32,338 nt of DNA from contig JAKAIL010000010.1 of NCBI GenBank assembly GCA_021825235.1, forward strand, positions 1 to 32,338, given 5' to 3'. The translations under genes and the position numbers were made by a program. The number at the start of each line of letters is the position of its first letter. Within the stretch, counting starts at the first letter, position 1. A model generated the notes under the pieces. The model was given only the letters and a program-made list of their open reading frames with translations. It was not told the origin of the DNA and made no database searches. Shown in pieces: positions 19,027 through 24,551 of this stretch. This DNA comes from Bacteroidota bacterium. Its GTDB lineage: Bacteria > Bacteroidota > Ignavibacteria > Palsa-1295.

Positions 19027-20040
19027 TTATACTTCCTCCTTTTTTCGTGGATTCCATCCATCCGCATATTCCGTTTTTCCGCTAAAGGCGTCGAATGGAT
19101 CGGTCCGGAGCCGCCTCACGCCTTCTTCCCATTCCAATTCCTCTAAAAGTGTCTTCGCTTCGGCCCGCTCGAACGATTCGACCCTGGCTCGTTCCTCGGT
19201 TTCGTTGCGCTCGCGTTCGGCACGCGCTTCAATCGGTGTTCGTTCTCTCAATTGCGTTTCGTTTTCATGAAGCGGAGGATTCGGGTTGTGCATTTTCTGC
19301 GAATGCAGGGCATAAACGCTATATCGCTTTTCCCATCGAAGCTTCTCCTCATGCGACATCAACCGCCAGACCGAAGCCGCGTACGCAGAAAGCGCACCGA
19401 TCGGGCCGCGCGCCGGAGTGAACGAAGCCACATCGTAGCGCTGCTCGTGCGAGAAGATGACCATCGTAAGCGGCATCCGCGCGCGAATCGCGAGAATGCC
19501 CTGCGCGAACTGCTCGCGCTCCCAGCGCGAAAACGAAGTGAACTCGAACGAATTGAGAAGCACGATGCAGCCCGGGCGCTCCTTTACTTCCTCTTCGAGC
19601 CGCGAGGCCGTGAGCAGCGAGGTCGGCGCGTCTAAGATCGAGAGGTTCTCTGGAAACGGATTCGGAACCGCGTCGTCGAAGGTGACGTGATCGTGCTCTT
19701 CGAAAAACCGCGCGAAAGAGGGAGGAAGCGGAATATTTTGCTCGTGGAGCGCATGGGCGAAGGTGCGCTGCATCAGGTCTGCGCCGGCGTAGGTATTGAT
19801 AAGGAGCACGTGCCGTTCCGGGAACTTCCGCGCCAGAAAAAGCGACATCGCGTTCGAAATCTCGACCGATTCCCGTATATCCCGATTCAGCACGAGCGTA
19901 AGCGCATTGCTGTGGACCACAATCGCATCCCCCTCCGCATTTTCATACTGGCAGAGCTGCTCGCGCGCGGGCTCCGGCGCCGCCGCAAATAAGTCCGCCA
20001 TCCCGATCTTCCGTACTCCATCCAATGCACAGATTGCCAT
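19027..20040 (-). CDS. Hypothetical protein, RecA/DnaB-like fold suspected with degenerate Walker A; charged C-terminal coiled region
   Basis: AAGGAG RBS before ATG at 20040. GDAIVVHSNALTLVLNRDIRESVEISNAMSLFLARKFPERHVLLINTYAG and GCIVLLNSFEFTSFSRWEREQFAQGILAIRARMPLTMVIFSHE follow the RecA-like Walker A/B layout without a GxxxxGK[ST] loop. Confidence 0.55.
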   Translation of the reverse strand: MAICALDGVRKIGMADLFAAAPEPAREQLCQYENAEGDAIVVHSNALTLVLNRDIRESVEISNAMSLFLARKFPERHVLLINTYAGADLMQRTFAHALHEQNIPLPPSFARFFEEHDHVTFDDAVPNPFPENLSILDAPTSLLTASRLEEEVKERPGCIVLLNSFEFTSFSRWEREQFAQGILAIRARMPLTMVIFSHEQRYDVASFTPARGPIGALSAYAASVWRLMSHEEKLRWEKRYSVYALHSQKMHNPNPPLHENETQLRERTPIEARAERERNETEERARVESFERAEAKTLLEELEWEEGVRRLRTDPFDAFSGKTEYADGWNPRKKEEV

Positions 20041-20275
20041 AATGTTACTCCTTAAAGTGTAGAAGTTCTCTTGAATTGCGTTTGAAATTCATAAAGGCAC
20101 CTCCCCGATTTTTCATCATTCATCATTCTTCATTCATCATTGCTGTGGGTGCCCATACGCGCAATAGCAACATAACACATGAAGTATATAATTGTTACAG
20201 GAACCACAAAGATTTAACATTACGGGCACCTGTTTTCTATGTGATGAATACTCTCTGGCGCGGTTCCGTATCTCA

Positions 20276-20339
20276 GCTCCGTTAGGAGCGTAATATGTGT
20301 AGCCCCGGGTGAAGTGAGCGCAGCGAACGGAACCCGGGG
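20276..20339. repeat. REP-like palindromic element
   Basis: gctcc(gtta)ggagc at 20276-20289 followed by ccccgggt (20303-20310) ... acccgggg (20332-20339). Confidence 0.65.
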
Positions 20340-20406
20340 TTAGCGGATCAGTTTTAATTCCCAGAGTCTAGGAGGGACGACAGATCGCCTCAAGAACAAT
20401 CCAGAT

Positions 20407-22356
20407 TCAATTACCAAACGGAAAATCATGCCTGAGCCATTCTTCACCCGTAATTGTAGCAGGCGTTGTCGATCCGAGCTCTCCGATGAACTGAGTTGTT
20501 GGTGTTCGGGCATACTGGCCGCCACCTCTCGGTAAAATAGTACCCAACTTATGTGCAAGCGCGCGTTCAATTTTTGAAATGGAAGATAGGACAAGTATAT
20601 CCGTACATCTTGTCATGGCAACGTAGAAAAGGCGCCGTTGCTCCTGAAGAGCCTCGCGGCGCTCAACCGGTGGCAAGTTCCCATCAACAATAGGTATAAA
20701 TGCTTGATTACATGTCGTCACAATAGTGACCTTCGCAGTCAAACCTTTTGACTTCTGCAAGCTCATAACGCGCACGTATTCAGCATCCTCCGGTATCTCC
20801 GGTTGAGCGAGCTCATGACAAATCGCATTGTATAGCTTCTCCACTGTTTCACAATTAGGTAGAACCCGAAGAGCTACGTCTCGAAGTCCACTAACACCCT
20901 CCTCACCTGCTGGCATTAATTCATCCACGATAGCGGAGATTTCACCTGAGCCGAGATCTTCAACGGCTGCTATAATTTCCGTAAATTGAAGTAAAAGATT
21001 ATCGACACCAGGAAGGAGGGAACTGTCCTGTTCGGCGGAAACCATTGTTTGCCAAGGCGACAGATTATTGTCTTCGCAATAAGTCCGAAGCAAAGCATAC
21101 TCTTCTGCAAATCCAGTATCGCTTCCTCTCCCGAGAAGATAGCGAAGGGCAACTCTATCCTCCTTATCGACCAACAAAGTTAGCATCGCCAGAGCATATT
21201 GCGCTTCGGTCGATTCAAAAGCCTCTTCTTGGTAGAATGAATGGGCATCAATACCTCTTTCATTAAGCGCATCCCTAATCGCGTAACCGATTAGCTTTCT
21301 CGGTGTTAGGACCAAGATATCACCTGGTTCAACGCCCCTGGAATTTATTAAGTGAGTAACAAGGCCTGCTAAACCGTTTGCTTCAGCATTCAGGTCGGCC
21401 CACTGTACGATTGCAATATCGCCATCACAGTTCCCGGGTCTGGGAACAAGGCGTTGTGCAAGGTTTGCCCCGTGGTTTTTGGAAATTAGCTCATTGGCGA
21501 GAACTACGACTCGCTTCGGACATCGGCGGCATTCCTGAAGGCTCTGGTCGTACGTATTCGGGTGTGAGGTTGCATAAGTACTGATTCCCTCTGGGTTGGC
21601 GTGTCTGAAGCGGTAAATTGATTGATCAACATCACCGACAATCGATATTCCGCCAGCCGCTCCAAGAACATCTATAAGCTCCTGCTCTGCGCGATTAAGA
21701 TCCTGAAACTCATCGACCAATACGTGATCAAATCCTGGGTTGAAGTGCGGATTAGCTCTTAGAAATTTCAGAGCCTCAGGCACTACTTCCCCAATGAGCA
21801 TCGCGCCATGGAACCGGAGCCAACTAATTAAAAAATCTTGGAATATCCGATCCGATTCCGTCGTTGGCCAACCTGGTACTTCCGACTGGAGTCTGGCCCA
21901 GGCCGCTTCAAAAGCGAGGATTTGTTTTGTGATCTCTCGTCTCGGGCCAAAGGATGTTTGATATAGAAAATCATGGAGAAGGCCTTCCGCCTCAAAGCGA
22001 AGTATCCCGCTGCTCTTGAACGTTAATAAGGGTCTTGTGGCTCGTCCAGATATTTCAAGTACATCATTTCGACTAAGGAGGCCGAAGCAGAAGGAGTGAA
22101 GGGTCCCGGCATTAATTTGTTGAGACCCGACAATATTTAAGTCGCGAATATCATTAACCAATGCTCTGGCGGCATTACGCGTAAAAGTTACCGCGAGTAT
22201 CTGAGAAGGTTTCACCCCCTCTTCGAGTAATCGTGCAACCCTTCTTTTAAGCGCAAACGACTTACCCGTCCCTGGCCCCGCCATTACCCTCAGAGGCGAT
22301 TGAGTCGCAGCCGCAATCGCCAAAGCTGCTCCGGTTAATCCATCATTCCATGCCAT
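20407..22356 (-). CDS. UvrD/Rep-like superfamily 1 ATP-dependent DNA helicase
   Basis: Motif I VMAGPGTGKSFALKRRV, Ia LAVTFTRNAARAL, II HVLVDEFQDLNRAE, III SIVGDVDQSIYRFRHA, V RVMSLQKSKGLTAKVTIV, VI RRLFYVAMTRCTDILVLS. Confidence 0.93.
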   Translation of the reverse strand: MAWNDGLTGAALAIAAATQSPLRVMAGPGTGKSFALKRRVARLLEEGVKPSQILAVTFTRNAARALVNDIRDLNIVGSQQINAGTLHSFCFGLLSRNDVLEISGRATRPLLTFKSSGILRFEAEGLLHDFLYQTSFGPRREITKQILAFEAAWARLQSEVPGWPTTESDRIFQDFLISWLRFHGAMLIGEVVPEALKFLRANPHFNPGFDHVLVDEFQDLNRAEQELIDVLGAAGGISIVGDVDQSIYRFRHANPEGISTYATSHPNTYDQSLQECRRCPKRVVVLANELISKNHGANLAQRLVPRPGNCDGDIAIVQWADLNAEANGLAGLVTHLINSRGVEPGDILVLTPRKLIGYAIRDALNERGIDAHSFYQEEAFESTEAQYALAMLTLLVDKEDRVALRYLLGRGSDTGFAEEYALLRTYCEDNNLSPWQTMVSAEQDSSLLPGVDNLLLQFTEIIAAVEDLGSGEISAIVDELMPAGEEGVSGLRDVALRVLPNCETVEKLYNAICHELAQPEIPEDAEYVRVMSLQKSKGLTAKVTIVTTCNQAFIPIVDGNLPPVERREALQEQRRLFYVAMTRCTDILVLSSISKIERALAHKLGTILPRGGGQYARTPTTQFIGELGSTTPATITGEEWLRHDFPFGN

Positions 22357-22464
22357 GTTTTGCCACTTTGCGAGGAAGAACGCTTGTGCTAAAAGTTGAT
22401 AAAATCGTGTTTTGGGATGATTCGTTTTAAGAAGTTAACCAGGTTGGCCTTATGGCCTTTCATA

Positions 22465-23244
22465 TTAAAATGGAAGCTCATTAGGTCCCCTAAGATCGAC
22501 TATCCCTTCAGTACGAGCTTTCAATCTCCCTTGGTTTGCAAGGATCCAGTTCTCACCTACGTCTGTGAGCTTTAGCGCTGTATAGTTATTGCCGTTCCAG
22601 TCTATTTCATTTACGGAAATTAAAAAACCACGCCTCACCAAGTCTCGAATTACTAGCCCCGACATAGCTTTCGTATAGCCGGCACGTTCCATGTCATTCA
22701 TCACATTGTGACCGCTTACCGAATCGTCTGGTAAAGGACAATTCCCGAGTACAATTCCAAGAGCGGCAATATGTGTATCCGGAACTTCGGAAGCCTCTTC
22801 AACAACTTCGCTTATCCTGAGAGAACTAATTTCAATCTCTTTCATTGCCAGCGCGTTCAGCCTAGCAGTGATTTCATCTCCCATTTTTTTAAATGCACTC
22901 GGAGATTCGACACCATAGCGTATAATAGTTCGATGCTGAATGTCAAACGGAAACTTTTCTGGACGATCCTCAGAACATATTAAAACAAGCCCCTTGCCCT
23001 GTGCTCGTGCATAACCTACCTCGTACCATACATTCGGGCTGTTTGTGGATATATCAGCGATACAAACGATCGAATTTTTAATTCCTGCTTCTATTTCATC
23101 GATCGGAATTTCGACGGCAGGATCACGGTCTACACGATAAGGAATCAATTCGGCTGCTTTGATTGCGGGCCCAACGACCTCATCGTATCGTAGGTCAAAT
23201 GGACCACCATTATCAAAAGGTTGAATCACGAAACATTGAGACAT
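22465..23244 (-). CDS. Protein with N-terminal TIR/nucleoside 2-deoxyribosyltransferase-like domain and C-terminal winged-HTH-like region
   Basis: MSQCFVIQPFDNGGPFDLRYDEVVGPAIKAAELIPYRVDRDPAVEIPIDEIEAGIKNSIVCIADISTNSPNVWYEVGYARAQGKGLVLICSE (ADIS-x-NSPNVWYEVGYA signature); C-term MNDMERAGYTKAMSGLVIRDLVRRGFLIS...YTALKLTDVGENWI. Confidence 0.75.
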   Translation of the reverse strand: MSQCFVIQPFDNGGPFDLRYDEVVGPAIKAAELIPYRVDRDPAVEIPIDEIEAGIKNSIVCIADISTNSPNVWYEVGYARAQGKGLVLICSEDRPEKFPFDIQHRTIIRYGVESPSAFKKMGDEITARLNALAMKEIEISSLRISEVVEEASEVPDTHIAALGIVLGNCPLPDDSVSGHNVMNDMERAGYTKAMSGLVIRDLVRRGFLISVNEIDWNGNNYTALKLTDVGENWILANQGRLKARTEGIVDLRGPNELPF

Positions 23245-23384
23245 ATTATTTTTCCTGTTCTTTACTCAACCGTTTGCCTTTCGCACAGGTGCCCTCATTC
23301 CGCCGTCTATATTTCGGGCGGCGCGGTGTTATTTTAATTTTCTCCTCTTCCGCTTGCGGGACGGGAACATAATCGGATAACCTA

Positions 23385-23436
23385 CGCCGTTTCGAGCGAG
23401 ACTTTGGCGAGGCTTTCGGGCGAGACGCGTTTCGAG
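23385..23436. repeat. Repeat B, copy 1 (52 bp)
   Basis: cgccgtttcgagcgagactttggcgaggctttcgggcgagacgcgtttcgag; 47/52 identical by eye to 24428-24479. Confidence 0.7.
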
Positions 23437-23515
23437 AGCCGAAGAATTTCCACGCCGAAGGGCACGATTACGCCTTCCCTCAGCTTGAAAGAAAGCTACA
23501 AGCCCATCCAGCGCA

Positions 23516-24357: not shown

Positions 24358-24551
24358 CTTCCCCGTACACGAGCGGGTAAGCGCCTTGAAAACCCACACC
24401 TGTCATCCCCGCGCATGCGGGGCTCTGCGCCGTTTCGCGCGAGACCGTGGCGAGGCTTTCGGGCGAGCCGCGTTTCGAAAGTTTTGCCAGTTGGCATATT
24501 ACAGGGCACCCCGTCGGGGAAGCTGGAGCTTCCCCGTACACGAGCGGGTAA
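24358..24551. repeat. Intergenic repeat mosaic: repeat A (23 bp, two exact copies), repeat B copy 2, and several hairpins
   Basis: cttccccgtacacgagcgggtaa at 24358-24380 and 24529-24551; repeat B copy at 24428-24479; hairpins ccccgc(gcat)gcgggg 24407-24422, ccccg(t)cgggg 24509-24519, ggggaagct(gg)agcttcccc 24516-24535. Confidence 0.75.

Follow-up and report, generated by a model that had tools for sequence, protein, structure and literature searches.

An SSB-like C-terminal tip on a presumed N-glycosidase effector encoded next to a UvrD-subfamily helicase in a Bacteroidota bacterium

AbpAB is triggered by phage SSB or DNA damage (PMC10732053), and Hachiman is a helicase-plus-nuclease sensor of genome integrity (PMC12278908). 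SSB itself carries a C-terminal tip, DDDIPF in E. coli (PMC5872125), and this SSB-Ct is the motif through which at least 17 proteins dock (PMC10018359, PMC7145534). In this study, we analyzed a locus from a Bacteroidota bacterium (contig JAKAIL010000010.1) within a window of 32,338 nucleotides, by which we mean the whole stretch of DNA under consideration. An original prediction, made from the sequence, had read two of its genes as a candidate two-gene defense module of a UvrD-like helicase and a TIR/NDT-like protein with a winged-helix-like tail. The domain assignments and the connection to defense were supported, whereas the gene neighborhoods spoke against the module. The main finding is the tail of the smaller protein, overlooked in that prediction, which ends in an SSB-like tip (...GPNELPF). 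The features of the locus are as follows.

22465 to 23244, minus strand: small effector-like protein, 259 aa, with an NDT/TIR-like domain, a PadR-like winged helix, and an SSB-like C-terminal tip (ORF, structure model, fold searches, family alignment)
22909 to 23244, minus strand: NDT/TIR-like Rossmann-type domain, residues 1-112 (sub-threshold Pfam PF05014; Foldseek to NDT, DNPH1, MilB, and TIR)
23020 to 23022, minus strand: codon of E75 in NVWYEVGYA, presumed to be the catalytic Glu (no variation in the family alignment; within the PF05014-matched stretch)
22537 to 22782, minus strand: predicted winged-helix domain, residues 155-236 (AF2 secondary structure; Foldseek to PadR regulators)
22468 to 22512, minus strand: C-terminal tail predicted to be disordered, residues 245-259, with the SSB-like tip NELPF at 22468-22482 (pLDDT <50; tip conserved in the family)
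20407 to 22356, minus strand: UvrD-like SF1A helicase, 649 aa, of a distinct defense-associated subfamily (Pfam, GajB-like in PADLOC, subfamily score gap)
22258 to 22281, minus strand: helicase Walker A AGPGTGKS, residues 26-33 (sequence)
20734 to 20763, minus strand: helicase motif V region SLQKSKGLTA, residues 532-541 (sequence)
20303 to 20340, no strand: REP-like palindrome 3' of the helicase, dispersed in the genome (sequence, repeat comparison)
23382 to 23438, no strand: dispersed repeat in the intergenic region 5' of the small gene (an 89% copy lies at 24425-24481)

Both genes lie where the original prediction had placed them, on a common (minus) strand and 108 bp apart, and no terminator-like site was found when this gap was scanned. 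The two repeats that it had pointed out were also recovered, the REP-like palindrome about 67 bp beyond the helicase stop and the dispersed repeat 5' of the small gene; segments of 20240-20406 are present at four further sites in the genome. The GC3 is 42.8% for the helicase and 36.9% for the small gene, compared with 50-69% in eight other sampled window genes. As a GC3 below that of the sampled neighbors is expected for acquired genes, the two genes look horizontally acquired. A cassette or attC origin of the window copy is unsupported, the window repeats being REP-like and dispersed and unlike those of the arrays described below (L221 and L049). Besides the pair, a PADLOC scan recognized no defense genes among the ten window neighbors. 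One gene flanking the locus is multi-copy in the genus, and a 337-aa protein encoded at 19027-20040 of the window, unassigned in function, has several paralogues in same-genus genomes.

The small protein was modeled with AlphaFold from six homologues (mean pLDDT, 74.5). Foldseek matched the Rossmann-like N-terminal half of the model to DNPH1, NDT, the CMP N-glycosidases MilB/BcmB, and TIR domains, and the C-terminal half to PadR regulators, which bears out the predicted winged-helix-like tail. With modest E-values in Foldseek (about 1e-4 to 1e-3), the fold call leans on many concordant matches. Pfam PF05014 (Nuc_deoxyrib_tr) gave 18.2 bits, under its cut-off of 28.8, and the PADLOC model 'Effector TIR' matched weakly (E=4.4e-6); an uncharacterized PHROG matched at 3e-16, an NCBIfam search with the small protein gave no match, and PDB sequence searches returned only noise. 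The predicted structure supports a TIR/NDT-like N-glycosidase fold, joined to a winged helix of PadR-like type. Residues 63-79 are ADISTNSPNVWYEVGYA, and the presumed catalytic Glu on which the original prediction depended is present there as E75, which is invariant in 12/12 aligned sequences. The protein is a member of an undescribed family of proteins that presumably attack nucleotides or NAD.

Full-length relatives of the small protein occur in an Acetatifactor assembly (L010), on viral contigs (L185-L187, L191-L193, and L274-L275), and in members of the class (G416, G605, and G476), and the full-length family forms ten sequence clusters with 28-66% identity between clusters. An exact [ILV]PF end after acidic or polar residues is found in eight of the ten: GPNELPF in the window, DDDIPF in L186, DDGIPF in L187, DDPIPF in L191/L192, DDNVPF in L274/L275, VDDLPF in G416, DDDVPF in G605, and KDDLPF in G476. 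The other two clusters deviate, with the ends DDSLPFN (L010) and DDDIPSY (L185). The tip comes after a linker of variable sequence, and the tail is predicted to be disordered (pLDDT <50 in AlphaFold). The small protein of the window carries the arrangement of an SSB-Ct-type motif, in which a tail predicted to be disordered terminates in acidic-[ILV]PF, with fewer acidic residues in its tip (PNELPF) than in canonical SSB tips. The idea of the tip was formed on five members, and the exact tip was present in 5/5 of the clusters found later (L191/L192, L274/L275, G416, G605, and G476). As controls, the tip was present in one of 21 relatives with only the common N-terminal domain, the exception (L016) belonging to another NDT-like type, and 20 [ILV]PF ends were counted among 1224 background ORFs, mostly SSBs and members of the small-protein family. 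A binomial figure of 4e-18 for the tip presumes independence and ignores shared ancestry, and it is not usable as a probability.

The ends of SSB and effector were then compared within the same genome. They are VDDLPF and PNELPF in the genome of the window, DDDLPF and VDDLPF in G416, DDDVPF and DDDVPF in G605, and KEDLPF and KDDLPF in G476, respectively, and the last three residues of the effector equal those of the host SSB in all four genomes compared. The SSB tips sampled from the class are nearly all LPF, with VPF rare; therefore, the VPF match in G605 is informative and the LPF matches are weakly so. Given that the tail copies the docking tip of the host SSB, the small protein would be tied to the replication/repair machinery. 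Our search of open-licence papers turned up no defense effector described as having an SSB-type tip.

A second NDT/TIR-like type of 284-285 aa, FAFVLMPFDKKF..., is encoded at L016:1018-1872 and L021:1150-2007 and ends in EYDDLPF and WEDDLPF, respectively. Since this type has the tip on a different C-terminal sequence, the SSB tip seems to have been joined to NDT/TIR-like domains more than once. A 113-aa protein encoded at L223:187-528, unlike the effectors by eye, has the SSB-like end WESEIPF. The winged helix of RecQ binds SSB tails, and the tip of the small protein could act in cis, filling an SSB-tip pocket on its own winged helix and holding the protein inactive until free SSB tails, e.g., those of a phage SSB, displace it. 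The joint occurrence of winged helix and tip in the full-length family would be in agreement with this, as would the triggering of AbpAB by phage SSB (PMC10732053) and the part that SSB plays in reports on Retron-Eco8 (PMC12887533) and Hna (PMC13381803). However, no pocket was identified on the winged helix, and the second NDT-like type bears the tip without sharing the C-terminal sequence. We therefore consider a tip acting in cis quite improbable and favor one that would dock the effector on other proteins.

The genomic contexts of the small-protein family are those in which, by inference from context, defense cargo would be carried. On the viral contigs, the effector gene lies among structural genes (prophage structural regions), and the position that it occupies ahead of a Mu-type protease-like gene is common to L191, L192, and L274/L275 (genes identified by eye). 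In L010, genes for a cytosine methyltransferase, an unassigned protein, and Vsr (a Dcm/Vsr locus) are followed by the effector and then by a borderline HEPN protein. The effector of G416 lies within a cassette-like array whose repeats are spaced 0.8-1 kb apart, and that of G605 is preceded by a macro-domain protein; the latter, at L222:3552-4157 and 42 bp upstream, is a possible ADP-ribose-handling partner. Single-gene arrays with attC-like repeats, resembling chromosomal integrons, are found at L221:5900-10000 (the effector of G416) and L049:1-4456 (the helicase of G096), and at L188:5001-10608 a cluster that ends in an NTPase, NLR/STAND-like in appearance, includes a distant relative lacking the SSB tip. 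Single-sequence scans of viral sequences gave no matches. The PadR-like winged helix, a DNA-binding domain of which typical TIR effectors have no need, would also suit a regulator or nucleotide-metabolism protein, in which an NDT-like ligand-binding domain controls the DNA-binding domain and the tail is a partner-docking tag. We regard this as unlikely, considering that neither E75 nor the N-glycosidase core around it varies and that the sporadic spread over prophages, a cassette-like array, and a restriction-modification (RM) locus is typical of defense cargo.

The helicase has the canonical SF1 motifs attributed to it, namely Walker A (AGPGTGKS), DEFQD, the QSIYRFR region, SLQKSKGLTA, and QRRLFYVAMTR, and it matches the Pfam families UvrD-helicase (E=3.3e-38) and UvrD_C (E=1.6e-17). 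Its top PADLOC match is GajB (E=3.6e-44); TIGR01073 pcrA scores similarly (1e-45), below its cut-off. The cut-offs of the housekeeping equivalogs are missed by far, with 156 of 911 bits for pcrA, 131 of 1144 for uvrD, and 114 of 951 for rep. A profile search of 391 class genomes returned six subfamily members at 752-1114 bits and a next best score of 256, and the helicase belongs to a sharply bounded UvrD subfamily, of which we found no report in the open-licence papers searched. On viral contigs, a search with the helicase alignment detected distant UvrD relatives only. Type I RM adjoins the subfamily helicase in three genomes: in G416, a type I RM operon directly precedes the helicase, and a TIR_2 protein comes after it; in G460, it lies between hsdS and hsdR and overlaps hsdR; and in G650, the order is hsdS, helicase, DarTG, and hsdR. 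Elsewhere, it is part of an Hma locus that also encodes HmaB and an Abi_C protein (G458), stands by itself with attC-like repeats on either side on a contig of 4.5 kb (G096), or persists as a truncated copy amid insertion sequences on the Rhizobium plasmid pRL23b4. The region L160:2261-13474 is a type I RM operon in which the genes between hsdS and hsdR encode the UvrD-like helicase as well as a DarTG pair.

The gene neighborhoods of both families led us to reject a conserved two-gene system. An NDT-like gene was found beside the helicase in 0/5 of the other subfamily members and not beside the truncated Rhizobium copy, within the available sequence (only 4.5 kb for the G096 contig), and no helicase was found beside the other full-length NDT-winged-helix proteins in the sequence available. 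The pair is not co-conserved in homologous loci, an outcome that the original prediction had named beforehand as speaking against its module. G416 has both genes, unlinked, with the effector in the cassette-like array and the helicase in the RM island. In the genome of the window, the two genes might form a cooperating sensor-effector module, in which the helicase would track foreign DNA ends or ssDNA and unleash its N-glycosidase partner, in the manner of other systems that combine a helicase with an effector. Consistent with this are the common strand, the 108-bp gap in which no terminator was found, the low GC3 of both genes, the TIR_2 protein next to the closest helicase (G416), and the presence of both genes in one further genome, which has a chance of about 0.04 when the genome of the window is excluded. 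However, the pair is absent from every other locus examined, the effector family stands alone elsewhere, and the helicase has unrelated partners, and on balance we judge such a module somewhat unlikely. A loose functional link is possible, since the helicase of G416 adjoins a TIR-superfamily protein (TIR_2, a different TIR family; one case). The two are probably anti-phage genes that stand apart from each other and do not form one fixed system.

The pair could also be the remnant of a known system, either Gabija lacking GajA or a retron II-A effector that lacks its reverse transcriptase (RT) and ncRNA, inasmuch as GajB models score best for the helicase and the combination of NDT and winged helix resembles the retron-Eco1 effector in outline. 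However, PADLOC recognized no GajA (OLD-family nuclease) beside the helicase or among the ten window neighbors, and no RT was found beside the effector among adjacent ORFs or PADLOC-scanned neighbors. The NDT_II-A model did not match the window protein at E<=1 or seven relatives at E<=0.01, nor did the STM3845_fam model match, and hhalign gave a probability of 0.5% between the small-protein family and the retron II-A effector. Comparison by models and profiles with the BL21-lineage effector of retron-Eco1 likewise revealed no relation, and the helicase subfamily is a separate one, found in RM and Hma loci. An incomplete known system is therefore very improbable. As for Thoeris, no ThsB model matched the window protein and no ThsA was present among the scanned neighbors.

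With roughly even confidence, we suggest that the locus is an islet acquired by horizontal transfer and made up of two defense-associated genes that move independently, one for an effector with an SSB-mimicking tip and one for a UvrD-subfamily helicase. The 259-aa protein would be a stand-alone effector with a TIR/NDT-like N-glycosidase domain, a PadR-like winged helix, and a flexible tail mimicking the SSB tip. The tip would dock the effector on SSB-interacting proteins of the RecQ/RecO/PriA/ExoI type and place it at replication or repair intermediates, where a phage-specific disturbance might release glycosidase activity on NAD+ or nucleotides; this attack would stop the infection or the infected cell. 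The helicase, carried in type I RM and Hma operons, may act on DNA ends or ssDNA arising from restriction or phage replication. A broader and tentative possibility is that N-glycosidase immune effectors on prophages, cassettes, and RM loci imitate the host SSB tail clade by clade and join the SSB interactome, wiring immunity to the replication/repair hubs of the host and sensing their takeover by phage. AbpAB, Retron-Eco8, and Hna have reportedly been linked to phage SSB, and an effector with an SSB tail of its own would, if the reading is true, connect the replication hub with cell-suicide enzymes by a direct physical route. Type I restriction operons would gain a component, as yet without a name, in the helicase subfamily.

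Compared with known systems, the window helicase is, like GajB of Gabija, an SF1A UvrD-like defense helicase of similar size; in contrast to GajB, it has no GajA among its scanned neighbors, forms a subfamily of its own, and is found with type I RM, with Hma, and in a cassette-like array. In being embedded in a type I RM operon in G460 (hsdS/hsdR) and G650 (with DarTG), the helicase gene resembles that of PrrC in EcoprrI, although PrrC is an anticodon nuclease and the window contains no RM genes. The small protein and the type II-A effector of Retron-Eco1 (Ec86; PDB 7v9x, 7xjg) are single chains of similar size in which an NDT-like N-glycosidase-type domain precedes a C-terminal domain of DNA-binding type, whereas the retron effector ends in ...DKIPYAHP instead of an SSB tip and no RT was found linked to the window protein. 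Its predicted fold is similar in Foldseek to those of SpbK, AbTir, MyD88, and RPP1, but compared with the TIR, ThsB, and SpbK NADase effectors its sequence is nearer to the NDT/CMP-hydrolase branch, a winged helix and an SSB tip are added, and no ThsA was found nearby. The tip itself can be compared with that of SSB: although its carrier is an N-glycosidase-like protein with no OB fold, the small-protein family has the same acidic-[I/L/V]PF at the end of a disordered tail, with the last three residues as in the host SSB.
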